64,000 nucleotides of DNA. Source: Ornithinicoccus hortensis (GTDB lineage: Bacteria > Actinomycetota > Actinomycetes > Actinomycetales > Dermatophilaceae). A program made the position numbers and the translations under genes. Numbering within the stretch: position 1 is the first letter of the stretch; the number at the start of each line of letters is the position of its first letter. Shown here one piece after another: positions 5,451 to 26,211 of the stretch. The stretch lies in assembly GCF_006716185.1 (NCBI RefSeq), contig NZ_VFOP01000001.1, forward strand, positions 930,001 through 994,000. Reading direction: 5' to 3'. The notes beneath the pieces are model-generated. The model ran no database searches. It saw nothing but the letters and a program-made list of their open reading frames with translations, and was not told where the DNA came from.

Positions 5451-5735
5451 CTAACCGGCTGCCGAGGCGGAACTCTGCACGGTCCGTGGGGACTCCTGCA
5501 CGATCACGGCGTGCAGGTAGGGGCTGGTGAGGTTGTGCGGCAGCGCGCGCGCCCACAACCAGGGGTCGTCGTAGAAACTGATGATGCGGGGCCCGGGGAA
5601 GGCCACCATGGACTCGCCCAGGTCGAGCGCGCTCCGCGAGCCGGTCACCCGGTGCGTGCCGTCGTCCCTGACCTCCAAGGTGGTCACCACCTCGGTGAAC
5701 CGGTGGTGGGTGGACCGGAGTTCGACTGTGATCAT
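5451..5735 (-). CDS. Small hypothetical protein, 94 aa
   Basis: Unrecognised. It starts MITVELRSTHHRF and reads as a single alpha/beta domain with no export signal or membrane segment; WLWARALP is a distinctive internal motif. It converges on the terminator at 5368-5406 and lies downstream of a 12-bp inverted repeat at 5804-5850 that may belong to its control region. No good ribosome-binding site precedes the ATG, so the start is uncertain. Confidence 0.5.
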   Translation of the reverse strand: MITVELRSTHHRFTEVVTTLEVRDDGTHRVTGSRSALDLGESMVAFPGPRIISFYDDPWLWARALPHNLTSPYLHAVIVQESPRTVQSSASAAG

Positions 5736-5803
5736 CTGACCGCCCTCATGACATCGCGCGCCTCGGACCGACCTTGCGAGTCACCATTCCCGGCTCCCTC
5801 CGA

Positions 5804-5850
5804 CGACACAACGGCTATGAGTCTAGGCCGGATCTGTCGCCGTTGTGTCG
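5804..5850. promoter_or_regulatory. 12-bp inverted repeat upstream of 94-aa gene
   Basis: Perfect arms CGACACAACGGC (5804-5815) and GCCGTTGTGTCG (5839-5850), separated by 23 nt. The spacing of about three helical turns between arm centres suits an operator. The stretch 5736-6063 contains no convincing gene, only this dyad, a C-rich run near 5910-5940 and the tandem repeat at 5941. Confidence 0.4.
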
Positions 5851-5940
5851 CCCCCACGGTGCGCCCCGAACCTCTCACCCCCGCTGCCCGGCAACGACTC
5901 TCACCTCCCGCGCCCACCCCCACCCCACCCCCACCCCCGA

Positions 5941-6026
5941 CCGGACGCGTGAGGTGGCGGTCCCCACCCCTGACCGGACGCGTGAGGTGGCGGTCCCCAC
6001 CCCTGACCGAACGCGTGAGGTGTCGC
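5941..6026. repeat. 33-nt tandem repeat, 2.6 copies
   Basis: Two identical 33-nt units (5941-5973 and 5974-6006) begin CCGGACGCGTGAGGTGGCGG and are followed by a diverged partial third unit to 6026. On the minus strand the unit contains ACGCGTCCGGTC followed by a G-rich run and GACCGCC. Related units lie on the opposite side of the DinB gene at 6778-6876. There are no spacers, so this is not CRISPR. Confidence 0.85.
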
Positions 6027-6063
6027 CCGTCGTCTCCGTCCGTGGCCGACCCGCGGGCCGGGA

Positions 6064-6759
6064 CTACCTCGCCCTGCGGTCGTCCTCCTCCCCAGCCCGT
6101 CGACCGCCAGGATCCACCTGTCGTGCGGCGTCGCCAGCCGCCTCCTCGAGCCTGGCGACGTAGTCGGTCCACCACTGCGCATCGCCAGCAGGCATGTTCG
6201 GGCGATCCGGGAACAGGCCGACGGCCCCGTCGATCATCTCCCGGACGATGTCGGCCTGGCCGGCGTGACGCTGGGTCTCGGTGACCATGTGGACCAGGAT
6301 CTGGTGCAGCGTCACGTTGGCCTTCTCGGGCGCCCACCAGGGGACCCGCCCCGGAGCATCGAGCGGCAGGAGGCGGATCGTCTCATCCGTGTGCGCCCAG
6401 ACCGCGTGGTACAGCCCGAGGATGTCCTCCCGGGTTTCCCGGCTGGTCGCCCACATGTCGGCGTTATCTTCGGCGTCCTCGGCGAACCACGGCAGTTCGA
6501 TCTCCGAGGGCCGCCCGAAGGTGTCGCCCAGGTAGCCGAGCTCGACGCTGGCCGTGTGCTTGACCAGCCCGAGCAGGTTGGTCCCCGTGGGTGTCATGGG
6601 CCGTCGGATGTCGTACTCCGAGAGGCCGTCGAGCTTCCACAGCAGCGCCTGGCGCGCGTCCCGGAGGTAACGGTGCAGGGTCGCCTTCGGATCACTCGGC
6701 GGCGGCGCCGACACCGGGTCGTTGCCGCCGCCGAGTGCTGGTCCCTTGTCATCGCCCAT
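6064..6759 (-). CDS. DinB/DUF664-family protein
   Basis: Four-helix-bundle protein of the DinB-like superfamily, 231 aa, related to mycothiol- and bacillithiol-dependent metal enzymes. Candidate metal-binding histidines are visible in LVKHTASVELGYLG and in ILVHMVTETQRHAGQAD, the usual His-x(about 80-90)-His-x(about 7)-His pattern. The start is placed at ATG 6759 (MGDDKGP). A longer reading from 6813 would begin inside the intergenic 33-nt repeat and is rejected. As the window also encodes mycothiol synthase, a thiol-transfer or detoxification role is possible but is inference. Confidence 0.85.
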   Translation of the reverse strand: MGDDKGPALGGGNDPVSAPPPSDPKATLHRYLRDARQALLWKLDGLSEYDIRRPMTPTGTNLLGLVKHTASVELGYLGDTFGRPSEIELPWFAEDAEDNADMWATSRETREDILGLYHAVWAHTDETIRLLPLDAPGRVPWWAPEKANVTLHQILVHMVTETQRHAGQADIVREMIDGAVGLFPDRPNMPAGDAQWWTDYVARLEEAAGDAARQVDPGGRRAGEEDDRRAR

Positions 6760-6777
6760 TCCTCGAGCATGCCAGCC

Positions 6778-6876
6778 CGTGCGTCCGGATGCGGGTGAAT
6801 ACCGCCAGCTCATGCGTCTGGTCGGGGGTGGAGGCCGACCGCTCGCGCGTCCGGTCGGGGAGGGGAGGGGACCGCC
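6778..6876. repeat. 33-nt-period degenerate tandem repeat, three units
   Basis: Three adjacent units of exactly 33 nt (6778-6810, 6811-6843, 6844-6876) share the core YGCGTCYGGTCGGGG, ending in a CCGCC- or CCGAC-like string. They match the reverse complement of the 5941-6026 array, so the DinB gene is bracketed by the same repeat in opposite orientation. Confidence 0.75.
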
Positions 6877-6880
6877 GGAG

Positions 6881-8062
6881 TCAGCTGACGAGGGCAGCCT
6901 CGGCCCGGTGCTCGGACGAAGCCCCGGACGCCGCCTCGGCCCGACCCTCCTCCTCGAGCTGGCGGACTAGCGGGATGACCTGCTCGCCGAAGCGCTCGAC
7001 GTCCTCGTGCACGTGCAGGAAGCCCAGCAGGAGCAGGTCGACGCCGACCCGCTTGTACTCCACGATCCGGCGGGCCACCTGCTCGGGCGTGCCGATCAGG
7101 CCGGTGCGGAAGCCGTCGTTGTACTGCACCAGGTCCTTGAACTCGCTGTCGGCCCACATCCCCTTCTTGTCGGCGGTCGCGGCCCCGGCCTGCTTCACCG
7201 CGTTGCCGAAGTCGTTGACCTTGTCGACGTCGGCCTTGGCGATGATCTCCTCGACGACGGAGCGGGCCTCCTCCTCGGTGTCCCGGACGACGGCGAACCC
7301 GTTGAGGCCGAAGCGCACCCGGCGCCCGTTCGCGGCGGCCTGGGCGCCGACGTCCTCGATCTGCTCGGCGGCACCCTCGAGGGTGTTGCCGTTCATGAAG
7401 TACCAGTCGGACAGGCGACCGGCCATCGCCCGGGCGGACGTGGAGTTGCCGCCCTGGAAGACCTCCGGCTGCAGCCGCGGCTGGGGCCGGAAGGTGACGT
7501 CCCTGGTGCGGTAGAAGTCGCCGCGGTAGGTGAAGTCGTCCTCCGCCCACAGGCCGCGGAGCACCTCGATGAACTCCTCGGCGCGGCGGTAGCGCTCCTC
7601 GTGGTCCAGCCAGGGCAGGCCGAGGTCGGTGTACTCCTTCTTGAACCAGCCGGAGACCACGTTGAGGCAGAACCGGTTGTCGTGCAGGTCCTGGGCGGTG
7701 GCCCCGAGCTTGGCCAGCACCGTGGGCGGCCACTGGCCGGGGTGGACGGCCGCGATGACCTTGAGCCGCTCGGTCGCCGACAGCAGGCCGAGGGAGAAGG
7801 ACACCGACTCGTGCTGGGCGTCCGCGCCGTAGGAGGCCAGGTAGCGCACCTGCGTCAGGGCGTAGTCGAAGCCGACCCGCTCCGCCGTGCGGGCCACGTC
7901 GATGTTGTATGCCGGGGTGTGATTGGTCCGCTGCTCGATGGTCGAGACGACCAGCCCGCCCGAGACGTTGGGCACCCAGTAGGCGAAGGCGAGCGGGTCG
8001 GAGCCGGGCGCCCCGGCTCCGGACTGGGCGACGGCGTTCGGCTCGTGCGTGGTGTCGGTCAT
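6881..8062 (-). CDS. sfnG: FMNH2-dependent dimethylsulfone monooxygenase
   Basis: LLM-class (luciferase-like) flavin-dependent monooxygenase, 393 aa. It strongly resembles SfnG, which oxidises dimethylsulfone to methanesulfinate and formaldehyde for sulfur scavenging. Hallmarks are AYWVPNVSGGLVVSTIEQRT near the N-terminus, ALTQVRYLASYGAD, LNVVSGWFKKE, EVFQGGNSTSAR and SDWYFMNGNT. The ATG at 8062 is chosen because it is separated from the flavin reductase stop by one base; a reading from 8164 would run through that gene. About 30 C-terminal residues are Glu/Ala-rich extras. It is co-transcribed with the reductase that supplies FMNH2. Control by sulfur or cysteine status is suggested by the leader ORF at 8814-8909. 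Confidence 0.9.
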   Translation of the reverse strand: MTDTTHEPNAVAQSGAGAPGSDPLAFAYWVPNVSGGLVVSTIEQRTNHTPAYNIDVARTAERVGFDYALTQVRYLASYGADAQHESVSFSLGLLSATERLKVIAAVHPGQWPPTVLAKLGATAQDLHDNRFCLNVVSGWFKKEYTDLGLPWLDHEERYRRAEEFIEVLRGLWAEDDFTYRGDFYRTRDVTFRPQPRLQPEVFQGGNSTSARAMAGRLSDWYFMNGNTLEGAAEQIEDVGAQAAANGRRVRFGLNGFAVVRDTEEEARSVVEEIIAKADVDKVNDFGNAVKQAGAATADKKGMWADSEFKDLVQYNDGFRTGLIGTPEQVARRIVEYKRVGVDLLLLGFLHVHEDVERFGEQVIPLVRQLEEEGRAEAASGASSEHRAEAALVS

Positions 8063-12852: not shown

Positions 12853-13563
12853 GTGGAGAGCACCAGGGTCGTCGTGCGACGGGGGGAGCGCGAGGTCGCC
12901 GGTGTGTGTGGGGAGCAGGAGTCGTGGGCGGAGGCCGCGTCACGGCTCTCCGCAGAACTGGGCGAGGTGAGGGACGTGGTCGCCCGGGACCTCTCGGCGT
13001 CCGAGAAGGTCTTCGACGGCGACCCCGACCTGCGGGTGGCGACCCGGCCGATGACGGCCGGTGACCTGCCCGACCTGCGCCGCTGGCTGCAGGCCGAGCA
13101 CGTCCGACGGTGGTGGCCGACCGGTGACCTGTCCACGGGGGCGGTCCACACGACATACCTGCCCCGGATCGAGGGCAGGAAGGCCATCCGGATGTGGGTG
13201 GTGGAGGCCAACGGTCGGTCGGTCGGATTCGGGCAGGACTATCGGGTCGGCGACCACCCGCAGTTCGCCCTGGTGGCCCCGGATCCCGCGGCCATCGGGG
13301 TCGACTACGCCATCGGGGCGCCGGCCTGGGTGGGACGCGGGCTCGGGGTCCGGTTGTTGTGGGCCTGGCTGACCGGTCTGCGCGACCACTACCCGGACGC
13401 GGCGTCCTGCTTCGCGGCGCCGGATCACCGCAACGCAGCCTCGCTGCGGGTCCTGGAGAAGGCCGGGTTCGAGCAGGGCACCTGGTTCGACGAGCCTCGG
13501 TCGGACGGCCGCTCCGACACCATGGTCGGCTGCACCCTCACGCTCGGGAAGGTGGTCGGGTGA
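12853..13563 (+). CDS. GNAT acetyltransferase (AAC(6')-like)
   Basis: Acetyl-CoA-dependent N-acetyltransferase, 236 aa. The N-terminal 55 residues are an unrelated charged segment. The GNAT fold begins at ATRPMTAGDLPDLRRWL and includes HVRRWW, an aminoglycoside-6'/IucB-like signature, the acetyl-CoA loop GAPAWVGRGLGVRLL, and the C-terminal DHRNAASLRVLEKAGF motif. The GTG at 12853 is the most upstream start not overlapping the divergent CHRD gene; a shorter start is possible. Its 3' end overlaps the convergent PIN toxin gene by 26 nt. The acyl acceptor is unknown. Confidence 0.8.
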   Translation: MESTRVVVRRGEREVAGVCGEQESWAEAASRLSAELGEVRDVVARDLSASEKVFDGDPDLRVATRPMTAGDLPDLRRWLQAEHVRRWWPTGDLSTGAVHTTYLPRIEGRKAIRMWVVEANGRSVGFGQDYRVGDHPQFALVAPDPAAIGVDYAIGAPAWVGRGLGVRLLWAWLTGLRDHYPDAASCFAAPDHRNAASLRVLEKAGFEQGTWFDEPRSDGRSDTMVGCTLTLGKVVG

Positions 13564-13948
13564 GCCGCACCCGGCAGTGACCGGCGGCCGCCCGCGCGAG
13601 GCGGCCGTCGGCGGTCAGCAGGGTCGCATCCTGGGCCTGGGCGAGCACGACGTACGCGGCGTCGTAGCCGGAGAGGGTGTCCCGCAGCCGCCACATGTGG
13701 CGGAGGAGCCCGTCGATCGGCACTGTCGTGACCCGGAGCGTCGGTAGCACCGTGATGGCCTCCTCGGCGTCCTCACGAGAGAGTCGTCCCCCGAGGGCCA
13801 GCCCCCGGAGCGCGTGGAACGCCTCCGCCATCCAGTGGTTCGGCGCCACCCAGTGCGGGTCCCGGGCGAGGGACTGCCGAGTGGCACGCACCTCTGACGC
13901 GGACCCGGCCAATGCGTTGACCAGGACCGACGCGTCCGTGACGATCAT
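13538..13948 (-). CDS. PIN-domain toxin (VapC family)
   Basis: Ribonuclease toxin of the PIN superfamily, 136 aa. Acidic active-site residues are recognisable: Asp in IVTDASVLVNAL, Glu in WMAEAFHALRG, Asp in SGYDAAYVVLA, and Asp in LLTADGRLARA. The ATG at 13948 overlaps the antitoxin stop (ATGA), the usual coupled order of antitoxin then toxin. The last 26 nt overlap the end of the GNAT gene on the other strand. Confidence 0.88.
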   Translation of the reverse strand: MIVTDASVLVNALAGSASEVRATRQSLARDPHWVAPNHWMAEAFHALRGLALGGRLSREDAEEAITVLPTLRVTTVPIDGLLRHMWRLRDTLSGYDAAYVVLAQAQDATLLTADGRLARAAAGHCRVRLTRPPSRA

Positions 13949-14229
13949 GGGCCGCGGTTCTCCTCCGAGGCGGCCCCACGGATCTGGGCGCTGCGCTGCT
14001 CGCGACCCTGCCGGATGATCTCGGCGATGTCTCCGCCCGTGACGGCCGAGTCGCGGACGCGGGCGCGTTCCTCCGCCCATTCCAGGATCTGGCGGTTGCG
14101 CTGGAAACCCGCCTCCTGCTCCAGAACCGCGAGCAGGTAGGACTGCAGCGACTTGCCCTCGGTGCGGGCCCGGTCGGCAAGGGCCTGCCGGGTCTCGTCG
14201 GGGACGTCGCGGATCGTGATCGTCACCAT
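13945..14229 (-). CDS. Ribbon-helix-helix antitoxin (FitA/VapB type)
   Basis: Antitoxin of 94 aa. The N-terminal MVTITIRDVPDETRQAL is a beta strand plus first helix of a ribbon-helix-helix DNA-binding domain of the FitA/CopG type. The charged C-terminal half (WAEERARVRDSAVTGGDIAE) should wrap the toxin. A CTCC-complement ribosome-binding site (GGAGGC) sits just before ATG 14229. Upstream, 14236-14258 contains a TGCATGCA palindrome and TGC-rich half-sites, a plausible autoregulatory operator shared with the divergent helicase promoter. Confidence 0.88.
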   Translation of the reverse strand: MVTITIRDVPDETRQALADRARTEGKSLQSYLLAVLEQEAGFQRNRQILEWAEERARVRDSAVTGGDIAEIIRQGREQRSAQIRGAASEENRGP

Positions 14230-14340
14230 GCCTCCAGTATGCATGCACTCTGCCTGCAGATCGCCTGCGCCGACCGTATCCTCACGCAACCACGCACCCG
14301 GGTGACGGCGCCGTCCACAGGCCAGCGGACGGTATACGTG

Positions 14341-16977: not shown

Positions 16978-17173
16978 GCTCGAGTTGGATGTCGGCGCTG
17001 CATGAGCATGCGGCAATGGCCGCCCGCGGGACAGCAGATTCGTTCCTGATTTCCTCGACGCGTGAGGCTTTCCGTGGTCTAATCACGGGATCGACCGCAA
17101 AGGCGCGGCCGCGACCGGCCGAGGAGCCTGTGGCAAGAGGGGACGACGGATTCTGGCGACCACTGCGGAGGCA

Positions 17174-17461
17174 ATGATGCTTGTGGGGTCTGCACCGGGG
17201 GCCATGGCCGCTCCGGGAACTAAGACAGGGCACGTTTGGCGGTCGGGCTGTCCGACCCTGGCGCCGAACCCGTGGGTGAATGCTGACACGCAAGGAACGA
17301 CGAACGTTATTGCGCCGGGGAGTTCATACACCCACGTTTACTACAACTCAGTTCGCCGGGACCGGCAGTTCAAGGCGACTTATAACGGCGGCAAGTACAC
17401 TGTGTCCACGACGGGGAACATCCACTTGAGTGGGACTTACGGGTACTGTTCTGACATGTGA
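17174..17461 (+). CDS. Small secreted two-cysteine protein, probably frameshifted at signal peptide
   Basis: The frame from ATG 17174 encodes MMLVGSAPGAMA, then a mature part of about 83 aa with exactly two cysteines and a C-terminal TYGYCSDM. The N-terminus is too short for a signal peptide. Upstream, GAGGAG and GTG 17130 open a frame (MARGDD...) that hits a stop at 17177. One additional G in the GGGG run at 17139-17142 would join it to this frame, giving MARGGRRILATTAEAMMLVG, a convincing signal peptide. The gene resembles the secreted protein at 20920-21231: two cysteines, a G-x-x-x-V-x-x-PG motif, an H-x-Y motif and a TYxYC end. Function unknown; a secreted peptide or toxin is inference. 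Confidence 0.65.
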   Translation: MMLVGSAPGAMAAPGTKTGHVWRSGCPTLAPNPWVNADTQGTTNVIAPGSSYTHVYYNSVRRDRQFKATYNGGKYTVSTTGNIHLSGTYGYCSDM

Positions 17462-17756
17462 TGCCCGTCCTGTTGGAGCAGCCCTTTAAGGCTGAAGATT
17501 CAAGCGAAGGACATTCTGATTGTAATGCCACCTTGTCGATCTGCAGGCCCTCTTGGATCATGCGGAGTGGCAATGGCTCTAGCCTCAATCTTTCACGGGC
17601 CCCGGTTGTTCGGTGGTGACGGCGTCCCGGTGGCCGTCGGGGGCTGATTCTGGCATCGGGGTGTGACAGAGGTCCGGGCGGCGGCCTCGGTGCGTCGGTT
17701 TCCACGTGCCGATGGGGTTGGGCGTGCTGGTCTGGACAGGACGAGAGTGAAGGGGG

Positions 17757-19148
17757 TCAGGGCGGGGCGAGGGCGTTCAGCCGGGTCCACCCGGTCAGGG
17801 CGAGGTCGGCGTGCGGCGCGTCTTGTTTGAGGTGGAGGAGCACGCGGCGTCCGGTGCGGGCCAGGGTCGCGGGGATGGTGAAGATGCGGTGGCGGAGCCG
17901 TTTGGGTTCCCACCGGCGGGCGGGGTGATCGGCGAAGGCGAGGAGCTGGGTCCAGGCGGTGAGTTCCATGGCCATGAGGACCAGGTGGCACCACAGGGTG
18001 TTCTGGGCCAGGGAGTGCAGCGGCAGGTTGGCCAGGCCTGTGTCCTTCGCGACCCGGATCCGGTCCTCGCAGCGGGCGCGGCGGCGGTGCCGTAGCTCGA
18101 GGTCGGCCAGTTGCCCATTGGTGGTGTTCGTCGCGAACGCGGTGATCCGGTACCCGTCGACATCGTCGAAGCGGAGCTGGGCTCCGGGGTGAGGGCGTTC
18201 CCTACGGGCGATGACCCGCATCCCCGATGGCCACCCGGACAGGGACAGCAGCCCGGTCAGTTCGGCCACCTCCGCGCCCTTACGCAGTTCACCGTCGGCG
18301 TCGTAGGCCGGTGCCCATACGTCGTTCGGGATGAGTTTGAGCAGGTCAGGGGTGTTGGTCGGCAGGGTGTACCCGACCGTGTACTGCACGCTGCGGCGGG
18401 CCAGCCAGGTCGTGAACTCCTTGGTGCCGCCAGCTCCGTCGGCCCGGATGAGGATCTTCTTGCCCGGTCGAGAGGGGTTGATCCCGGGGACCTGGGCCAG
18501 GGCCTCCCGGGCGAGGGTGATGTGGTCGGCCGCAGTGTTCGACCCCGCGTTACCCGGGCGCAGCAACACGGCCAGGGGCTCACCGGTGCCGGCGGTGCCG
18601 TGATCGGCGAAGGCGAGCATCGGGTGGAAGCCGAAGGTCTTCTTGAACGTGGGGGCAGCCGACTCCTTCTCGGAGTGGGCGATCACGACCGTGGCGTCCA
18701 GGTCGATGATCAACGGGTCACCCGCACTCGCGCCATGGCCCGGGGCAGCCTCACCAGCCAGGCCCCACGCCCGAGCCCTGGCGGCCGCGCGTGCCGTGCT
18801 GATCGCCCGGGTAGCCGCCTTCGCCTCACCAGCCAGGGCGCTGACCGTGCGGGAGACAGTCGCCTCCGAGGCCACCTTCCCGTACACCCCGGACTCGGCC
18901 CGCAGCAGTGCGAGGTCGGCCAGACAGTCCCCACCCAGCGCCAACGACAACACCAGATCGGAGGCGACCTTGCCCGGGTCGTGAGTCGCGGTCGGCTTCC
19001 GCCAGCGACCCAGCCCTGCCCGCAGGGCACTGGTCAGCCCGGTGACCTCCGCGGCCTGGGCCAACAGCACGCCGCCGGCCTGGGCGACCGCTCCAGAGCG
19101 GGCCGTGTCGACCTGGACACGCGGATAGGAACGGGTAACCTTGTTCAC
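17757..19148 (-). CDS. IS1380-family transposase
   Basis: DDE transposase of 463 aa, full length for IS1380. Recognisable parts: TRSYPRVQVDTARSGAVAQA at the N-terminus, IIDLDATVVIAHSEKE (first catalytic Asp region), ILIRADGAGGTKEF (second Asp region), and HRRRARCEDRIRVAKDTG, the IS4/IS1380-type Y-x2-R-x3-E-like segment where Glu would be the third catalytic residue. GTG 19148 is preferred, with AGGAG 10 nt upstream; the reading can extend to 19199. No frameshift is seen, so the element may be active. The 5' leader forms a 13-bp hairpin that covers the ribosome-binding site. Confidence 0.92.
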   Translation of the reverse strand: MNKVTRSYPRVQVDTARSGAVAQAGGVLLAQAAEVTGLTSALRAGLGRWRKPTATHDPGKVASDLVLSLALGGDCLADLALLRAESGVYGKVASEATVSRTVSALAGEAKAATRAISTARAAARARAWGLAGEAAPGHGASAGDPLIIDLDATVVIAHSEKESAAPTFKKTFGFHPMLAFADHGTAGTGEPLAVLLRPGNAGSNTAADHITLAREALAQVPGINPSRPGKKILIRADGAGGTKEFTTWLARRSVQYTVGYTLPTNTPDLLKLIPNDVWAPAYDADGELRKGAEVAELTGLLSLSGWPSGMRVIARRERPHPGAQLRFDDVDGYRITAFATNTTNGQLADLELRHRRRARCEDRIRVAKDTGLANLPLHSLAQNTLWCHLVLMAMELTAWTQLLAFADHPARRWEPKRLRHRIFTIPATLARTGRRVLLHLKQDAPHADLALTGWTRLNALAPP

Positions 19149-19150
19149 CT

Positions 19151-19223
19151 GAAAGGTGCTCCTCGATCTTGGGTGACGGTTGATCTCGACAATCACCATC
19201 TTCCCAGGTCAGGAGCACCTTTC
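19151..19223 (-). promoter_or_regulatory. 13-bp hairpin sequestering transposase ribosome-binding site
   Basis: GAAAGGTGCTCCT (19151-19163) and AGGAGCACCTTTC (19211-19223) are perfect inverted repeats. In the minus-strand mRNA the second arm contains the AGGAG that precedes GTG 19148. Transcripts entering from outside would carry both arms and hide the site. A transcript starting inside the loop would not. Confidence 0.6.
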
Positions 19224-19297
19224 GCCGTCACGGCACGCGCCCACCCACACCTACACACGAAATCTCGAGGCTAGTGCGGCGGGCCGTGGTTAAGCCA

Positions 19298-19857
19298 ATG
19301 CGGTGCCTCAGTTCCATGCTGGCGATCGCGAGCCTCCTGCCCCTCGCGGCTTGCCAGAATGAGGAACCCGAGGCCGACGCGGCGAATGCTGTTGTGCGGG
19401 GCAACCCTGACCGTGCTGATAGCGAACGACTCCAGAAGGAGTGGTTCACGCGCATGGGAGGTTGCCTTACCGAGGCGGGATTCCCCTCAAAGATGGAGGG
19501 GGACGTCCTCACCTCGGCCGGGACGGTCGGCAGGCAGGACGATTTCGACGCTGCCTGGGCGACGTGTGAGGAGAGCCTGGGTGAGATTCCGGCATCGGAC
19601 CCACTGACGCCCGAAGAGCTTGGCACGCTCTATGACCTCTACCTGGAGGCGGACGAGTGTCTGCGTGACAACGGACTACCCTGACCGCACAGATGCCAAG
19701 TAAGGACACGTGGGTGGCGCAAGAGATCCAAGCGATGACCGACTCGCAGGCCGATCCCCCTCCGCTCCCCTTCGACGGGCTGCTGCAGCATCAGTACGAG
19801 GACGTCTGCCCGTGGCCTTCCGGCGAAGACATCTTCGAGCGGATGAACGGTGGGTAA
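19298..19857 (+). pseudogene. Lipoprotein gene A, frameshifted
   Basis: Starts MRCLSSMLAIASLLPLAAC at ATG 19298 (a GTG at 19274 is also in frame), a lipoprotein signal with lipobox LAAC. The frame stops at TGA 19682-19684 after CLRDNGLP. The related copy C (21481-22028) has an extra base here (CTACCAGTGACC versus CTACCCTGACC). Restoring one base lets the protein continue through VTAQMPSKDTWVAQEIQAMT to TAA 19855-19857, about 186 aa. Conserved features shared with paralogue B: WFTRMGGCLTEAGFPSK, DDFDAAWATCEESLGEIP, PLTPEEL and EADECLRDNGLP. Function unknown; its position next to a secreted peptide and an export system suggests an accessory or immunity role (inference). Confidence 0.75.
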
Positions 19858-19878
19858 CCGCACTGAGAGCAGGTCGCG

Positions 19879-20011
19879 ATGAGCACGGATGCTGTGCCGC
19901 GTTCGCGTGGGCGTGGGGTGGGTGTTGGCCTGTTGGTGGTTCTCCTGATTGCGGGAGCAGCGGTTGCTGGGTGGTGGGCTGGGCGGGCTGCTTTGGAGCC
20001 GCGGGGGGGGG
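19879..20011 (+). pseudogene. Truncated copy of adaptor gene
   Basis: Encodes MSTDAVPRSRGRGVGVGLL onward to AGRAALEPRGG, nearly identical to the first 42 residues of the intact adaptor gene at 22050. Homology ends abruptly in a run of nine G (20003-20011), where IS3-type sequence begins. It is the broken 5' end of a duplicated [lipoprotein-adaptor] unit. Confidence 0.85.
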
Positions 20012-20017
20012 CGCTTC

Positions 20018-20143
20018 AACACGCTGCCCGATCCGGACCACCGCCGCGTTCAGCGACAACTCCAGATCTTCCTTCCTGGCCTCGGCAACCAGCCGCATTG
20101 CACGCTCACGAAGCTCTGGCGGATACTTCCTCGGTGCTGGCAT
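20018..20143 (-). pseudogene. IS3-family transposase orfA fragment
   Basis: The minus strand reads MPAPRKYPPELRERAMRLVA and continues to LSLNAAVVRIGQRV, the N-terminal helix-turn-helix part of IS3-type OrfA proteins, then breaks off at the G-run junction near 20015. No orfB or second end is present. The upstream part to about 20185 (GGTCTGGTGGAGGGTCTGAT on the minus strand) may be the original IS end. Confidence 0.75.
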
Positions 20144-20310
20144 AGTCATCATCCTCTCGGGATATCAGACCCTCCACCAGACCCGGGGCGCTTCAGCTCG
20201 AAGAACACGCATGCGACTACGGGAACCGGCGCTACGCTGCCCTTTGGGCCCGCGCGTCTAGGCCGGACCCGCCAGGACATCTGGACGTGGGCTTCTAGGG
20301 GGGGGGTATC

Positions 20311-20847
20311 GTGCATGACATGTGGCGGGGATGGATGGCCTGGAGCGTTGTATCCACGGGCCTAGTGATGGGTGCCTGCGCTGGTCCCGTCGACGGTCCA
20401 GAATCTGTGGCGCCTGACCGGCGCGCCGAGTTTGAGGCACGTGCCGGCTGGTGGGAATCGTACGCTGCCTGCCTCACGGACAAGGGATTTCCCACGCGCG
20501 CCACCCGAGACGGCATGCAAGGCCTCGGCAGTCAAGAGGAGTATGCGAACGCGGAGCAACTGGACGCCGACTACGACAGGGCAGACGGGGAGTGCCTGCA
20601 AGAAATAGGGGATATGCCTGTCGCAGCGCCTCTTACGGACGGTGAACTCAGACAATTGTATGAAGATAGCTTGGAAACGGCAGAATGTTTACGGCGCTAT
20701 GGAGAACAACCTGGAACTCCGCCAAGTTTTGAGAAGTTTGCGTCGGACTACAGAAGTCGCGGAGTGGCAATTCCATGGAGCCCGTATCAAACCGTCCAAA
20801 CGACTGATCTGGAGGCGTTCTGTCCGCAGCCGACCCTCGACTATTAA
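20311..20847 (+). CDS. Lipoprotein B, intact paralogue
   Basis: 178-aa protein of the same family as the broken copies A and C. The N-terminus MHDMWRGWMAWSVVSTGLVM precedes lipobox-like MGAC. Shared family features: WWESYAACLTDKGFPTR, DADYDRADGECLQEIGDMP, PLTDGELRQLYEDSLETAECL and a Pro-rich tail. Cysteines at comparable places suggest disulfides. Two starts are possible: GTG 20311, 4 nt after a run of nine G that could act as ribosome-binding site, or ATG 20320. Base composition is clearly less GC-rich than the chromosome average. The small secreted protein follows 72 nt later. Role unknown; immunity or accessory lipoprotein is inference. Confidence 0.75.
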   Translation: MHDMWRGWMAWSVVSTGLVMGACAGPVDGPESVAPDRRAEFEARAGWWESYAACLTDKGFPTRATRDGMQGLGSQEEYANAEQLDADYDRADGECLQEIGDMPVAAPLTDGELRQLYEDSLETAECLRRYGEQPGTPPSFEKFASDYRSRGVAIPWSPYQTVQTTDLEAFCPQPTLDY

Positions 20848-20919
20848 GCCTACCGCCCGGGCAGGCATATGACATATTGGCATAACCTGTTCAGTATCGA
20901 CAGAGATGGAGGATCTATC

Positions 20920-21231
20920 ATGAAGTGGAAGTCACGGATAGCGGCAGGTGCAGGGGCCTTCGTCCTGGTTGCGACCACGGTGGTGCCAGCACACGCAGCA
21001 GTCCAAAAGTCCGGAACTCGTACGTGTAGTCCGGAGGCGAACGCAGTAGCAAGGGCTTATGCCGATGGGAACGTTACAGTCCGGGGCCCCGGGCGAACGG
21101 CGGCTCAAGCGGCCCATGCCTATCACTCTACATTCAAAGTCCTCGCGCAGAATGGCCCTGGAGGTTACTGGAAAGCTAGTGTAACCGGGGGTGCCCTTGA
21201 TGACGTGAATACCTATGCTTATTGTCAGTAG
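20920..21231 (+). CDS. Small secreted two-cysteine protein
   Basis: 103 aa. GGAGG precedes ATG 20920. A textbook signal peptide (MKWKSRIAAGAGAFVLVATT, cleavage after AHA at about residue 26) leaves a mature chain of about 77 aa with two cysteines, one near the N-terminus (TRTCSPEAN) and one at the penultimate position (TYAYCQ), so a single ring-closing disulfide is likely. It shares layout and motifs (GNVTVRGPG, HAYHS, GGYWKASVTGG, TYxYC) with the protein at 17174-17461. It is not of the lactococcin 972 type as far as I can tell. It lies between lipoprotein B and pseudogene C, upstream of the ABC operon. Confidence 0.8.
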   Translation: MKWKSRIAAGAGAFVLVATTVVPAHAAVQKSGTRTCSPEANAVARAYADGNVTVRGPGRTAAQAAHAYHSTFKVLAQNGPGGYWKASVTGGALDDVNTYAYCQ

Positions 21232-21480
21232 GCGATAGCCTAGTGAGCCGATACCAAGCCAAGCGGAAGCACGCCGCTTGTCGAGGGATTTGTGAGTTCC
21301 GCAGCAAATCTTTGCGTACTTGCCGGGCACTGCGGGCACGTAGAGAACGTAAACCGAATACCGTTTTGATGCGTGGCTTGATACGGCAGAAGTAGGGGTT
21401 CGAGCAGCCCTGCAAGAGGCGGGAGACCCGGCTCGCGGGAGCCTATTCCATCAACTTGCTCGATGAAATTGGGGTGTCGT
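21232..21480. other. Non-coding spacer
   Basis: About 250 bp of lower-GC sequence with no convincing ORF. A GGGGTTCGAGC string near 21396 recalls a tRNA T-arm but no tRNA can be folded around it. Confidence 0.5.
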
Positions 21481-22028
21481 GTGGCATCCAGATTTCTCGG
21501 AGCCTTGACCTTACTGCTTTCTGCGGTACCGCTCGTCCGCCGCTTGCCAGAGTGAGGAACCCACGGCTGACGCGGCGAATCCTGCCGTGTGGGGCAACCC
21601 TGATCGTGCCGACAGCGAACGACTCCAGAAGGAGTGATTCACGCGCATGGGGTTGTCTTATCGAGGCGCGATTCCCCTCAAAGATGGAGAGTGATTTTCT
21701 CACCTCGGCCGGCAGGATGGATAGCCAGGACGATTTCGATGCCGCCTGGGGGCGTGAGGATAGCCTGGGTGAGATTCCGGTGTCGGACCCACTCCCGCCA
21801 GAAGAACTGGGGACTGGAGGCAGATGAGTGTCGGCGTGAGAACGGGCTACCAGTGACCGCACAGATGCCAAGTAAGGACACGTGGGTGGCGCAGGAGGTC
21901 CAAGCGATGACCGATTCGCAGGCTGATCCGCCTCCGCTGCCCTTGGACGGGCTGCTGCAGCGTCAGTACGAAGACGTCTGCCATGGCTTTCCGGCGAAGA
22001 CATCTTCGATCGAATGAACGGTGGATAA
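21481..22028 (+). pseudogene. Lipoprotein gene C, degenerate
   Basis: Closely related to copy A over its whole length, but broken repeatedly. From GTG 21481 a signal-like MASRFLGALTLLLSAVPL shifts out of frame before the lipobox Cys. TGG of copy A is TGA here (21637-21639 region). Later indels remove the YDLYLE segment near 21815. The 3' part (VTAQMPSKDTWVAQEVQAMT onward) is open but ends in a shifted tail. It directly precedes the intact adaptor gene, as copy A precedes the truncated adaptor, so both derive from one duplicated unit. Confidence 0.75.
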
Positions 22029-22049
22029 CCGTCGTGAGAGCATGACCGG

Positions 22050-23213
22050 ATGAGCACGGAAACAGTGCAGCGTTCGCGTCGGCGCGGGGTGGGTGTGGTG
22101 CTACTGGCGGTCCTCCTGATTGCCGGGGCGGCGGTTGCTGGGTGGTGGGCTGGGCGGGCTGCGTTGGAGCCGCGGGTGGCGGTGGAGGGTCCGGGTGCTG
22201 GAGCTGAGGCGGTGTGGGGTGTGGTGTCGGAGTCGTCGGTGGGGCGGTCGTTGCCGTTGTCGACGACATTGCGACAGCCGGCGGTGATGGTGGCGGGGAA
22301 CGGTTTGTCGGGGGTGGTGACAGGGGTCTCGCCTGGTGCGGTGGACGTGGGGGATGTTGTGTATGTGGTGGCTGGTGTCCCGGTGCGTGCGGTGGAGGGG
22401 TCGGTGCCGTTCTGGCGGGACCTGGAGCGGGAGGTTGAGGGGGAGGACGTGACTCAGTTGCAGGGGGCGCTGATTGAGTTGGGCTTCCTGGAGGGTGTGG
22501 CTGATGGGGAGTTCGGGGCGGGGACGGAGCGGGCGGTGAAGGCGTGGCAGAAGGACCTCGGCTTGAGGGAGACCGGGACGGTGCCGTTGGGTGAGGTGGT
22601 CGCGGCGCCGGAGTTGCCCACGGTGGTGCAGTTGGGGGAGTCGATTGTGGTGGGTGGCACGGTCAGCGGAGGTGAGGAGGCGGTGTTGGCCCCGACGGGG
22701 GAGCAGGAGTTCGTGTTGGTGGTGACGCAGGAGCAGGCGCGATTGATCCCGGCGGAGGCGACGGTGCGGGTGACCTGGCAGGAGACGGTGTGGGAGGCGG
22801 TGATTGCCGGGTCGAGCCAGGACGAGTTCGGGTCGACCGAGTTCGAGCTGACGGGTCCGGATGGGGGGCCGGTGTGCGGGGGTGAGTGCGGGACCTTGCC
22901 CGGGGATGCGCAGGTGACGTTGCGTTCGGAGGTGGTGGTGGTGCCGGAGGTGTCGGGCCCGGCGCTCCCGGCGGCGGCGGTGCAGACCAGGGCCGACGGC
23001 ACGGCATACGTGGTCACCGAGGAGGGTGAGGTTGAGGTGACGGTGCGGGGGTCTGGTGGTGGGGTGGCGATCGTGGACGGGGTAGCGGAAGGGACCCGGG
23101 TGCAGGTGCTGGCCGAGGCCGAGGGCGGGGTGGGGCAGCAACCCGCGCCGGCCCCGGTCCCAGGTGATACCACGGGACCGGAGGACAGTGCGGTCACCAG
23201 CGGCGGCGGGTGA
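22050..23213 (+). CDS. MacA-like adaptor with peptidoglycan-binding domain
   Basis: 387-aa membrane-fusion-type protein. One N-terminal transmembrane helix (GVVLLAVLLIAGAAVAGWWA, about 13-33) is followed by beta-rich sequence, a peptidoglycan_binding_1 domain at about 128-180 (VTQLQGALIELGFL and FGAGTERAVKAWQ), then beta-barrel or lipoyl-like segments to a Pro/Gly/Thr tail. A Cys pair (VCGGECG) lies near residue 275. Such proteins couple an FtsX-type ABC transporter to the cell wall in Gram-positive bacteria. It forms an operon with the ATPase 3 nt downstream and the permease. Codon use is odd: GTG and GGG dominate where most neighbours use GTC and GGC. Confidence 0.82.
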   Translation: MSTETVQRSRRRGVGVVLLAVLLIAGAAVAGWWAGRAALEPRVAVEGPGAGAEAVWGVVSESSVGRSLPLSTTLRQPAVMVAGNGLSGVVTGVSPGAVDVGDVVYVVAGVPVRAVEGSVPFWRDLEREVEGEDVTQLQGALIELGFLEGVADGEFGAGTERAVKAWQKDLGLRETGTVPLGEVVAAPELPTVVQLGESIVVGGTVSGGEEAVLAPTGEQEFVLVVTQEQARLIPAEATVRVTWQETVWEAVIAGSSQDEFGSTEFELTGPDGGPVCGGECGTLPGDAQVTLRSEVVVVPEVSGPALPAAAVQTRADGTAYVVTEEGEVEVTVRGSGGGVAIVDGVAEGTRVQVLAEAEGGVGQQPAPAPVPGDTTGPEDSAVTSGGG

Positions 23214-23216
23214 GGC

Positions 23217-23906
23217 GTGGTGTTGGCCGTGCAGGGGTTGTCGTTCGCGTACCGGCGGGGTGGGGAGGAGCTGTTCGGCGGGTTGTCGCACGAGTTCGTC
23301 CCCGGTCGGGTGACCGCGGTGACCGGTCCGTCGGGGCGAGGGAAGTCGACGTTGTTGTATGTGTTGGGGTTGATGTTGACGCCGTCCTCGGGGAATGTGC
23401 TGTTGGATGGGGAACCGGTGGGGTCGGCGCCGGACCCGGTGCGGTCCAGGGTGCGGGCGCACCGAATCGGGTTCGTCTTCCAGGACGCGGTGCTGGACCC
23501 CTCACGGGTGGTGCTGGACTCCGTGGTCGAGCCGGCCTTGTATGCGGGGTGGTCGCGTCGTGTGGCGCGCGCGAGGGGCCGGGCGTTGTTGGACCAGGTG
23601 GGGGTGGGGGCGAGGGCGGATCACCGGCCCGGTGAGATCTCTGGTGGGCAGGCGCAGCGGGTCGCGGTGTGCCGGGCCTTGGTGACCGGTCCGAGCGTGA
23701 TCCTGGCTGATGAGCCGACCGGCAACCTGGACCGGGAGAATGCGCAGGGTGTGCTGGCGGCGTTGTCGGCCGCGGCCACCGACGGTCACTCGGCCGGTGG
23801 TGCGGACAATGTCGAGCGGGGACCAGGGGGGTTGGGGCGGACGGTGGTGATCGCCACGCACGATCCGTTCGTGTTGGAGCACGCCGATGAGGTGCTCGCC
23901 CTGTGA
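23217..23906 (+). CDS. ABC transporter ATPase (MacB/LolD type)
   Basis: Nucleotide-binding subunit, 229 aa. Walker A is GPSGRGKST, signature ISGGQAQR, Walker [13 protein letters not shown], and switch His in IATHD. The family is the MacB/LolD/FtsE group that works with FtsX-like permeases on peptide or lipoprotein export or on signalling. An insert near residues 185-203 (Gly/Asp/Ser-rich) is unusual between Walker B and the switch. GTG 23217 begins 3 nt after the adaptor stop. Confidence 0.9.
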
Positions 23907-23937
23907 GAGGCGTGGTTGCGGTGACGGGCCGGTCGCG

Positions 23938-25035
23938 GTGAGACCGTGGGCGGTGGTCCGGGAGGGTCTGGCGACGGCGTGGGCGAACAAGGTCCCCTCG
24001 GTGCTCGTGATGCTCCTGGTCGCCGTGATGTGCGGCACCACGTTGGCCACGGTCGGGCGGACCGCTGCCGCGGAGGAGCAGGTGGCCGACCGGCTCGACG
24101 CGGCCGGGTCACGGGTGCTGGTGGTCAACGACGCCCAGGGGCAGGACCTGATCCCCCGGGCCGTGGTCGACCAGGCGGCCGGGTTGTCGGTCGCGGAGCG
24201 GGCGGTCGGGGTGGTGATCCCGGTGGACGTGACGAACAGCGTCGTCGGTGCCGGGGGCACCAGGGTGCCGGCGTGGGCGGTCGTGGGGGACCTGGCCGAC
24301 GTGGCGAGCCTGGAGCGGGGCCGGTGGCCCGGTCCAGGTGAGGCGTTGGTCTCTGCTCAGGGTCAGCTCGCGTTGAGGATGGACGACCCGGTCGGGTCGG
24401 TGACGCTGGCCTCGACCACGGAGGTGACGGACTACAACGTGGTCGGGTCCTTCACTCCACGAGAACCGTTCACCGACTATGCCGCCGGCGTGCTGATCGC
24501 CGCACCGGAGGACGCGGTCGCCGACTCGCTGCACGTCGTGGTCACCGACTCACAAGTTGCCGCGACCGCACAACGGGCGGTGCTCGGGTTGATCGCCCCG
24601 CCCACCTTCGAGGCGGTGACCGTGCAGTCCCCGGTCAGCCTGGCGCAACTGCAGGAACAGGTCGCCGGGGACCTGACCACCTTCGGTCGTGCCCTGCTCC
24701 TCGGGGTCCTCGGTGCGGGCGCGCTGTTGGTCGCGATCGTCGTGCTCGCCGACGTGCTCATCCGCCGCACCGACCTCGGCCGACGACGGGCCCTCGGGGC
24801 GACCCGGTCGGTGATCATCGGCCTGGTCCTCGGCCGCACCCTGGCCCCCGCCCTGCTCGGCGCCGTCCTCGGGGCCACTGCCGGGCTCTGGATCGCCGCA
24901 ACCTACGCCGCCCCACCCCCCGAATTCACCGCCGCCACCGCGACCCTCGCCCTGCTCGCCGCACTCGCCAGCGCCCTCCCGCCAGCACTCTTCGCCGCCA
25001 CCCGCGACCCCGTCCGCGTCCTGCGAACACCATGA
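23938..25035 (+). CDS. FtsX-like ABC permease
   Basis: Membrane subunit, 365 aa from GTG 23938 (MRPWAVVREGLATAWANKVP). It has one N-terminal helix (SVLVMLLVAVMCGTTLAT), a large extracytoplasmic MacB_PCD-type domain of about 200 residues, and three C-terminal helices (about 245-345), the usual MacB/FtsX layout. The conserved RRTDLGRRRALGATRS coupling segment follows the second helix. It completes an adaptor-ATPase-permease tripartite system. Only one permease is encoded, so it must act as a homodimer. Confidence 0.88.
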   Translation: MRPWAVVREGLATAWANKVPSVLVMLLVAVMCGTTLATVGRTAAAEEQVADRLDAAGSRVLVVNDAQGQDLIPRAVVDQAAGLSVAERAVGVVIPVDVTNSVVGAGGTRVPAWAVVGDLADVASLERGRWPGPGEALVSAQGQLALRMDDPVGSVTLASTTEVTDYNVVGSFTPREPFTDYAAGVLIAAPEDAVADSLHVVVTDSQVAATAQRAVLGLIAPPTFEAVTVQSPVSLAQLQEQVAGDLTTFGRALLLGVLGAGALLVAIVVLADVLIRRTDLGRRRALGATRSVIIGLVLGRTLAPALLGAVLGATAGLWIAATYAAPPPEFTAATATLALLAALASALPPALFAATRDPVRVLRTP

Positions 25036-25075: not shown

Positions 25076-25777
25076 ATGGTCGGCGTACCGCTCCTGGAGG
25101 ATGTGCTCCGGTCCGCCGCGCACCTCCAGGAACTCGTGCCCGAGGCTGTGCTAGTCGGAGGGACCGCGGCTGCGGCGCACGCCCGACACCGGCTGTCGTT
25201 CGATCATGATCACGTCCTGATCGACCTGGCGGAGCGGTATGGCGCCGTGCTGGAGGCGGTCGAGGCGTCGGAAGGCTGGGCCACCAGTGTGCGCGCAAGC
25301 TCGCCGCCGCTGACCCTTCTCGGCTCGTTGGACGGAGTGGAGGCAGGGCTGCGGCAACTGCGGCGGAGCCGGCCGCTGGAGGTGGAGCCGTGGGAACTGG
25401 CGGGCGGGGAGTCGGTGGTGGTGCCCACCCTGCCCGAGATGCTCAGGGTCAAGGCGTACCTGGTCGTGCAGCGCAACGCGACGCGGGACTATCTCGACAC
25501 CGCGGCGCTGAGAGAGCGACTAGGTCCAGTCGACGCGGTGGCCGTCCTGAGTCAGATCGACGACTACTACTCGGACCGGAGCAATACCGACGGATCGGTG
25601 CTGACCGCCTTGGTCCAGCGGCTCGCCGACCCCGCACCCAGGGATCCGCGCGTGACCACCGAACTTCCGGCATACAAGGGGTTGGATCCGCGATGGCACG
25701 ACTGGGCGAGCGTCCTCGACGCCTGCCACGTCCTCGCGGACGGCCTGCTTCGCGCGGTGGAGGGCGAACTCGAATGA
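25076..25777 (+). CDS. AbiEii-like nucleotidyltransferase
   Basis: 233-aa protein of the nucleotidyltransferase superfamily. AVLVGGTAAAAHARHRLSFD and the adjacent HDHV supply the GG...RxSxDxD-type metal-binding core. A LPEMLRVKAYLVVQRNATRD segment follows, as in AbiEii/AbiGii toxins. Many members transfer nucleotides to tRNA ends and act in type IV toxin-antitoxin or phage-exclusion systems; here that is inference. Its stop overlaps the start of the HTH gene (ATGA). The order is enzyme first, regulator second. Confidence 0.75.
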   Translation: MVGVPLLEDVLRSAAHLQELVPEAVLVGGTAAAAHARHRLSFDHDHVLIDLAERYGAVLEAVEASEGWATSVRASSPPLTLLGSLDGVEAGLRQLRRSRPLEVEPWELAGGESVVVPTLPEMLRVKAYLVVQRNATRDYLDTAALRERLGPVDAVAVLSQIDDYYSDRSNTDGSVLTALVQRLADPAPRDPRVTTELPAYKGLDPRWHDWASVLDACHVLADGLLRAVEGELE

Positions 25778-26211
25778 TGGTGTCCTTCCGGAATGTCGAC
25801 GTGCCGTCCGGTACCCCACCGGGCTCGTGGCCCTACGAGGCGATCGCGACGACCATCGAGCGGGGGCTCATCGGGGACTGGGCGGTCCTCACCCGGGCCA
25901 TCCGGCGCGAGCCCTGGGGTCCGGTGGCCAGAATGGTGGAGGAGTACCTCTCCCGGGAGCACCCGCCCGGGGTCGGGCCGTTGCTGGAGCGCGCCATCTC
26001 CGGGGCGCGGGCCGAGGCCGAGGCGGCCGAACGCGCCGAGGTGGCACACGAGGTGGACGACCTGGTGCGCCGGTCCGGGCTGACCTCCCGCGACTTCGCC
26101 GAGCGGATCGGGACCTCCGCCTCGCGGCTGTCGACCTACCGGTCCGGGAAGGTGATGCCCTCGGCTGCACTGGTGGTGCGGATGCGCAGGTGCGTCGAGC
26201 AGGTGGAGTGA
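25774..26211 (+). CDS. XRE-type HTH partner of nucleotidyltransferase
   Basis: 145 aa, starting at ATG 25774 inside the previous stop. The first 90 residues are a charged helical region (ATTIERGLIGDWAVLTRAIR). The last 50 carry an XRE-type helix-turn-helix: LVRRSGLTSRDFAERIGTSA and STYRSGKVMPSAAL. It is the probable antitoxin or regulator of the paired enzyme. Confidence 0.78.
   Translation: MMVSFRNVDVPSGTPPGSWPYEAIATTIERGLIGDWAVLTRAIRREPWGPVARMVEEYLSREHPPGVGPLLERAISGARAEAEAAERAEVAHEVDDLVRRSGLTSRDFAERIGTSASRLSTYRSGKVMPSAALVVRMRRCVEQVE

Follow-up and report, generated by a model that had tools for sequence, protein, structure and literature searches.

A recurrent secreted peptide–lipoprotein pair, often beside a MacB-type ABC operon, in Actinobacteria: a candidate bacteriocin-like system

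In lantibiotic systems, protection of the producer is ensured by LanI lipoproteins together with LanFEG pumps. As far as the available part of the source goes, SDP is a Sec-exported peptide with one disulfide, against which YknXYZ protects; purified YknX binds peptidoglycan, and AS-48EFGH confers resistance to AS-48 (PMC5985334). The locus described here lies in a window of 64,000 nucleotides, the whole stretch of Ornithinicoccus hortensis DNA that was analysed (contig NZ_VFOP01000001.1, positions 930,001 to 994,000 of the forward strand), and combines small secreted peptides, lipoproteins and an ABC operon; its features, in window coordinates, are the following.

17162..17461, plus strand: pep1, a two-Cys secreted peptide with a decayed 5' end, where none of the usual in-frame start codons (ATG, GTG or TTG) would yield the whole signal peptide
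17757..19199, minus strand: IS1380 family transposase, between pep1 and lipA1 (NF033539, 317 bits, cut-off 180; DDE_Tnp_1_4); coordinates of the transposase, not of the element ends
19298..19857, plus strand: lipA1, a Cys-rich lipoprotein, frameshifted, the first part ending at 19684 and the C-terminal part continuing in a different frame up to 19857
19879..20010, plus strand: 5' fragment of adaptor gene copy 1, with 60% identity to adaptor residues 1-83, and covered also by the duplication alignment
20311..20847, plus strand: lipB, an intact lipoprotein with the lipobox Cys and four further family-conserved Cys
20920..21231, plus strand: pep2, an intact two-Cys secreted peptide (all-beta model, pLDDT 81)
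21530..22027, plus strand: lipA2, a decayed copy of lipA1 with stops and frameshifts
22050..23213, plus strand: adaptor, with an N-terminal membrane anchor and a PG_binding_1 domain (E 7.5e-14)
23217..23906, plus strand: ABC ATPase (ABC_tran, E 4.2e-26)
23938..25035, plus strand: FtsX/MacB-type permease (FtsX, E 2.9e-8; four hydrophobic stretches)

Components of the locus

Five cassette genes of the window appear undamaged, namely lipB, pep2 and the genes for adaptor, ATPase and permease; decay is seen in pep1, lipA1, lipA2 and adaptor copy 1. The original prediction had described two small secreted proteins of one type, three copies of one lipoprotein family, an operon joining an adaptor with a peptidoglycan-binding domain to an ATPase and an FtsX permease, and a second, broken adaptor start, and these descriptions hold: pep1 and pep2 match the same family profile (E 7.6e-33 and 3.6e-25, both being themselves rows of that profile), and the pep1-pep2 and lipA1-lipB alignments each score above all 300 shuffles; the 559 identical bases over the 668 columns aligning 19344-20011 with 21537-22182 identify lipA2 as a broken copy; the PG_binding_1, ABC_tran and FtsX domains are matched, and the similarity of adaptor copy 1 to the adaptor ends near 20010. 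Two further claims survive in part: of the IS elements said to be embedded here, the IS1380 element is recognized and the second remnant (20003-20152, minus strand) matched no Pfam family, while the shift in composition is seen in peptide and lipoprotein genes (G+C 0.58-0.64) and is absent from the ABC genes (0.70-0.73 vs 0.710 for the window). Mean G+C is 0.604 for 20 peptides, 0.631 for 20 lipoproteins and 0.710 for eight ABC operons.

The mature domains of the peptides span about 75-85 residues, with two invariant cysteines near both ends, and their fold is modelled as all-beta; the N-termini appear signal-like by hydropathy and by eye, and visual inspection showed no double-glycine leader. 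The peptide genes are coding, and purifying selection acts on them, dN/dS being 0.05-0.24 in the six comparisons, of seven, that allowed it to be computed. In Pfam, NCBIfam, PHROGs and PADLOC no family was found that describes either the peptide or the lipoprotein, and fold searches gave no informative match; lactococcin 972 was not among the matches listed for the all-beta peptide model.

As in tripartite systems of the MacB/YknXYZ type, adaptor, ATPase and FtsX-domain permease are encoded together; again as in that type, the permease has, judged by hydropathy only, four membrane-like stretches, the first two separated by a large extracytoplasmic loop of about 200 residues. By hydropathy the adaptor has a single, N-terminal membrane-like stretch. 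Assignment of the ATPase to FtsE or LolD (FtsEX, LolCDE) was rejected, the scores of 136.5 and 148.4 bits falling below the equivalog cut-offs of 264.85 and 307.75, respectively, as was assignment to TIGR03608 of lactococcin 972 (128 bits, cut-off 254.85).

Recurrence and covariation of the pair

In 186 genomes of the window's GTDB family, a lipoprotein gene is found within 600 bp downstream of 27 of the 29 strong peptide matches; the two unpaired peptides are the window's own, where the IS1380 element and a decayed lipoprotein intervene. Every one of the 20 genomes in which the peptide is strongly matched also has the adaptor, compared to 14 of the 166 others; within the genus the corresponding figures are 16/16 and 7/15 (Fisher p 8e-4). 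A lipoprotein lies within 6 kb of 31 of the 39 strong adaptor matches; at the threshold used the other eight have none within that distance, one of them having a weaker match 0.9 kb upstream. Of the 29 peptides, 18 have their nearest adaptor within 8 kb; the other 11 have it at a greater distance or on a different contig, in agreement with a shared pump. The excess of lipoproteins over peptides in the genus (144 vs 33) is as expected of orphan immunity genes.

The unnamed lipoprotein family occurs across the phylum, and adaptor and ATPase relatives are found at 16 of the 18 phylum loci fetched by the lipoprotein profile (18/18 with filters off); named hosts are Ornithinimicrobium, Serinicoccus, Nostocoides and Phycicoccus, and on a mobilizable Clavibacter plasmid the ABC genes are accompanied by a lipoprotein and a secreted ORF with two Cys. 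Since 13 of the 18 phylum loci carry no profile-matched peptide (by eye, a two-Cys ORF is seen at locus L174 and, less clearly, at L178), the lipoprotein would not be peptide immunity alone, and lipoprotein-ABC loci of this kind suggest that the pump module is older. A general neighbour scan, run without a YknW profile, returned no family recurring in more than 3 of 64 ORFs; such recurrence would bear on an extra membrane protein of the YknW or AS-48E kind. The pairing in 27/29, the co-occurrence in 20/20 genomes and the 16/18 phylum loci bear out the recurring peptide-lipoprotein-ABC cassette of the original prediction, which had named as its own refutation peptides or lipoproteins consistently occurring without the ABC genes, or adaptor operons mostly with unrelated neighbours; the roles it gave to the components (effector, immunity, export or self-protection) are retained below in conditional form.

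Peptide and lipoprotein distances are correlated, with a Mantel r of 0.71 (n=25, p 2e-4, the smallest value possible with 5000 permutations), of 0.73 within the genus only (n=19) and of 0.49 when near-copies are removed (n=16, p 2e-4). Where an adaptor lies adjacent (12 pairs), r is 0.66 between peptide and lipoprotein, compared to 0.17 (p 0.17) between peptide and adaptor and 0.26 (p 0.09) between lipoprotein and adaptor, neither of the latter being significant; when restricted to the genus (n=6), the mean identity is 0.31 for the peptide, 0.30 for the lipoprotein and 0.71 for the adaptor, with a peptide-lipoprotein r of 0.61 (p 0.03). The nearest relative is concordant for 13 of the 25 pairs and discordant for 12. 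As in toxin-immunity pairs, the two genes are adjacent and covary, and this covariation of sequences supports a cognate pair. Both dN/dS values exist for five comparisons, and in four of these the lipoprotein, taken with its signal and linker, has the higher one, the peptide being represented by its 84 C-terminal residues; a faster lipoprotein is not what the best-known toxin-immunity pairs show.

Proposed function and alternative readings

The explanation towards which we tentatively lean, with roles assigned by inference, is that peptide and lipoprotein form a conflict pair and depend on a MacB-type pump, anchored at the wall, that would work in the manner of YknWXYZ or AS-48EFGH. The peptide would be exported by the Sec route, fold outside the cell with one disulfide and act, like a bacteriocin, on the envelopes of related strains; the lipoprotein, on the producer's membrane, would bind the matching peptide, for immunity or for capture; the adaptor-ATPase-permease complex, held at the wall via its peptidoglycan-binding domain, would clear captured or wall-bound peptide by mechanotransmission, one pump possibly serving several peptide-lipoprotein pairs in trans. 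On this reading the window shows the decayed remains of an older pep1-lipA1-adaptor copy next to the surviving lipB, pep2 and ABC operon.

It is also conceivable, if rather unlikely, that lipoprotein, adaptor and ABC proteins form an older actinobacterial machine of envelope surveillance, responding to wall or drug stress, which the peptide would tune as a secreted ligand, regulator or wall cap and not as a toxin. The 13 phylum loci lacking a detected peptide and the lower dN/dS of the peptide in four of five comparisons agree with this, as do response regulator and histidine kinase domains, present in 2 of 64 neighbour proteins each (loci not specified) and annotated beside a Streptomyces plasmid relative; however, peptide and lipoprotein covary mutually and not significantly with the adaptor, and for 11 of the 29 peptides no strong adaptor match is near. 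A role of ABC proteins and adaptor in exporting or releasing the peptide or the lipoprotein, suggested by gene order, by the genome-level dependence of the peptide on the adaptor and by the movement of secreted peptides and lipoproteins by MacB relatives (reported in the available part of PMC5985334), appears improbable, given Sec-like peptide signals with no double-glycine leader noticed by eye and an ATPase that scores 148 bits, far under the 307.75 required for LolD. That the peptides are sequence-divergent bacteriocins of the lactococcin 972 family is very improbable: despite a similar size, a Sec-like signal, a G-G-x-W motif and a genuine lactococcin 972 locus in 1 of 31 genus genomes, PF09683 is matched by 0 of 21 peptide members at E 1, profile comparison with four members gives a probability of 0.3%, PF09683 has no match in the window's genome, and the genus locus has a 654-residue ORF of its own and an ATPase, with no adaptor or lipoprotein match.

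Returning to the conflict pair, it might represent an undescribed actinobacterial bacteriocin-like class, a proposal to be taken with some reserve: its hypervariable peptides would be folded all-beta domains in which a single disulfide joins the two ends, every peptide would have its own four-cysteine lipoprotein, and the pairs would use in trans a single MacB-type pump, anchored to peptidoglycan and taken over from an older stress module of lipoprotein and ABC proteins. If it is correct, it would supply a new family of antibacterial mini-proteins together with ready-made specificity pairs (25 were compared), a function would be suggested for the unnamed phylum-wide lipoprotein family, and the reason why Gram-positive MacAB-like pumps have adaptors would become testable; here the adaptor bears a peptidoglycan-binding domain, and specificity seems to reside in the separate lipoprotein.

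Comparison with described systems

With lactococcin 972 (PF09683, TIGR03608) the locus shares a small secreted protein, antibacterial in lactococcin 972, and ABC genes nearby, but no sequence relation was found, and the genus locus examined has no adaptor or lipoprotein match. A lipoprotein and an ABC pump are common to the lantibiotic LanI/LanFEG systems, from which the locus differs in transporter type and in that no modification enzyme was noticed at the cassette. The Enterococcus AS-48EFGH immunity operon also has an adaptor and a MacB-type ABC transporter, which there are tied to a bacteriocin locus and give resistance; AS-48, however, is a cyclic 70-residue peptide, and the available part of the source mentions no four-Cys lipoprotein for it (PMC5985334). 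Bacillus YknWXYZ/SDP shares an adaptor, a separate ATPase and a MacB-type permease, together with a small Sec-exported disulfide peptide and a peptidoglycan-associated adaptor (both predicted here); as far as the available parts of the sources describe it, SDP is a peptide of 42 residues and the system has as its fourth part YknW, a membrane protein, where the present locus has a four-Cys lipoprotein (PMC4887032; PMC5985334). Unlike that system, the present one has a PG_binding_1 domain in the adaptor and a very variable peptide linked to the ABC genes.

The window locus and its proteins

Within the window, the region 17162-25035 contains, in order, the two-Cys secreted peptide pep1, an oppositely oriented IS1380 transposase, the Cys-rich lipoprotein lipA1, a 5' fragment of the adaptor gene, the lipoprotein lipB, the second two-Cys peptide pep2, the decayed lipoprotein lipA2, and the adaptor, ATPase and permease genes, the whole window lying within a single 3.94 Mb contig. 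In the adaptor, a single membrane stretch at the N-terminus is combined with a PG_binding_1 domain; the permease, judged from hydropathy, has the four-stretch layout of the MacB type. Farther downstream, lipA1 and the start of the adaptor recur in a second copy, with identical bases in 559 of 668 alignment columns. lipB, pep2, the adaptor, the ATPase and the permease are intact; pep1 is without a usual start codon for its whole signal peptide, lipA1 carries a frameshift, lipA2 is broken by stop codons and frameshifts, and the adaptor's first copy ends near 20010. In Ornithinimicrobium sp. CNJ-824 (locus L102, on the contig of L139), the adaptor and ATPase of the cassette each occupy two overlapping frames (5561-7232, minus strand), which is another sign of decay or of sequencing error.

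Two further gene pairs were noticed in the window by eye. Directly 3' of the permease (25076-26211, plus strand), a nucleotidyltransferase-like ORF, which matched no Pfam family, precedes an HTH-like ORF, and the two may form a toxin-antitoxin pair; at 13538-14248 (minus strand), just upstream of the helicase gene, a PIN-like ORF is preceded by an antitoxin-like frame, and the two resemble a VapBC pair.

The 21 aligned peptides have two invariant Cys, a common GG and a nearly invariant Trp; 27 aligned lipoproteins have in common the lipobox Cys, four more Cys and one Gly. The AlphaFold2 model of pep2 is all-beta (pLDDT 81, pTM 0.69, 11 sequences), that of lipB helical with a hairpin (pLDDT 87.5, pTM 0.72, 19 sequences), and comparison of the two models with the PDB gave no useful match. 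No family describing the peptide or the lipoprotein was found in Pfam, NCBIfam (peptide queries pep1 and pep2 only), PHROGs or PADLOC; stray weak matches of single members were obtained, the best (3.8e-5, in 2 of the 27 lipoproteins) being to a lipoprotein family. The adaptor carries two cysteines spaced C-x3-C (276 and 280 in the window protein) that are invariant in the 12 adaptors of alignment A1, two distant ones included.

Pairing and neighbourhood in the Dermatophilaceae

The window proteins, and then profiles, served as queries against the 186 family genomes; since at most 10 adaptor, 25 peptide and 18 lipoprotein candidates were scored per genome, the family counts are lower bounds. 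The neighbourhood count comprised 40 peptide matches at E <=0.01, 29 of them strong (<=3.2e-10); 134 lipoprotein matches at E <=3.7e-11 among the matches listed, weaker ones being excluded; and 39 strong adaptor matches (E <=5.5e-47, most full length, 3 further partial pieces dropped) together with 30 weaker ones.

A co-oriented lipoprotein gene lies no more than 600 bp downstream of 27 of the 29 strong peptides and of 6 of the 11 weaker ones. Both exceptions among the strong matches belong to the window genome itself: IS1380 separates pep1 from lipA1, and pep2 is followed by the decayed lipA2. Strong adaptors have a lipoprotein directly upstream in 24/39 cases and within 6 kb in 31/39, weaker adaptors directly upstream in 0/30; among the 15 strong adaptors without a direct neighbour, two have a weaker lipoprotein match in that position. 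Seen from the 41 best lipoproteins, a peptide is upstream in 27 and an adaptor within 6 kb in 19.

At the genome level, the adaptor is present in all 20 family genomes with a strong peptide match versus 14 of the 166 others (Fisher p 4e-18, inflated by kinship), and, within the genus, in 16/16 versus 7/15 (p 8e-4). The nearest adaptor lies within 8 kb of 18 of the 29 strong peptides, and farther away or on another contig for 11; such distances and co-presence are consistent with a single pump serving several peptide-lipoprotein pairs. In one genome of the genus, a lactococcin 972 family gene (L123, 8077-8355, minus strand; E 1.1e-9) has a 654-residue ORF and an ATPase as neighbours.

Peptide and lipoprotein also covary: their distance matrices are correlated over 25 pairs (Mantel r 0.71, p 2e-4), within the genus (r 0.73, n=19) and after removal of near copies (r 0.49, n=16, p 2e-4), and the nearest relatives of the two partners coincide in 13 of the 25 pairs. 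For the 12 pairs with an adjacent adaptor the correlation is 0.66 (partial correlation controlling for the adaptor, 0.65); in this set neither the peptide (0.17) nor the lipoprotein (0.26) correlates significantly with the adaptor. Values of dN/dS, computable in 6 of 7 comparisons for each protein and with synonymous sites near saturation in most, range over 0.05-0.24 for the last 84 residues of the peptide and 0.15-0.46 for the whole lipoprotein, signal included; the G+C content of both is below that of the ABC genes. On these covariation, dN/dS and G+C data, a matched, fast-changing peptide-lipoprotein pair goes with a slower ABC module.

Loci beyond the family

In the phylum, where scoring was limited to 8 candidates per genome, the lipoprotein profile matched in 20 of 396 genomes. 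Outside the window's genome there were 26 matching places, and most of the 18 regions fetched surround those with the better scores. ATPase relatives are present in 18/18, permeases in 14/18 and adaptors in 16/18, the remaining two being detected with HMMER filters off (L185 clearly, L183 weakly and with a large bias term). The peptide profile matched at E 0.05 in 5/18 loci, two of these at only 0.02-0.03; a two-Cys ORF was seen by eye at L174 and, less clearly, at L178. Among 16 loci retrieved with the adaptor (some near duplicates), a lipoprotein occurs in 12 and a peptide matching the profile in 8. On a mobilizable Clavibacter plasmid, adaptor, ATPase and permease precede a two-Cys secreted ORF (by eye; E 2.8 against the peptide profile, non-significant) and a lipoprotein (E 1.7e-27); the incomplete PLSDB table lists no gene for these last two (L190, 6742-7616, plus strand). 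On a Streptomyces plasmid, a weak lipoprotein relative (E 2e-4) stands ahead of the same ABC order, with a two-component system alongside.

Several of the distant lipoproteins are short proteins with no two-Cys ORF alongside; the lipoprotein-ABC module therefore looks older than the peptide. The main rival explanation starts from such an older module, assigning it to envelope stress and regarding the peptide as its non-toxic ligand.

Proposed mechanism and known systems

The bacteriocin reading takes as precedents SDP with YknXYZ and AS-48EFGH (PMC5985334; PMC4887032). By analogy, the peptide would be bacteriocin-like and exported by Sec, its cognate lipoprotein would capture it at the membrane of the producer, and the wall-anchored MacB-type pump would clear the captured peptide; the pairing and covariation themselves are observed, and toxicity, capture and clearance are what we infer from these systems. 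Among the open-literature matches listed, none described the peptide family, the lipoprotein family or the association of the two with a PG-binding adaptor; the pump is of an already known kind, and the peptides, on the boldest reading, would represent a new class of bacteriocin-like protein.
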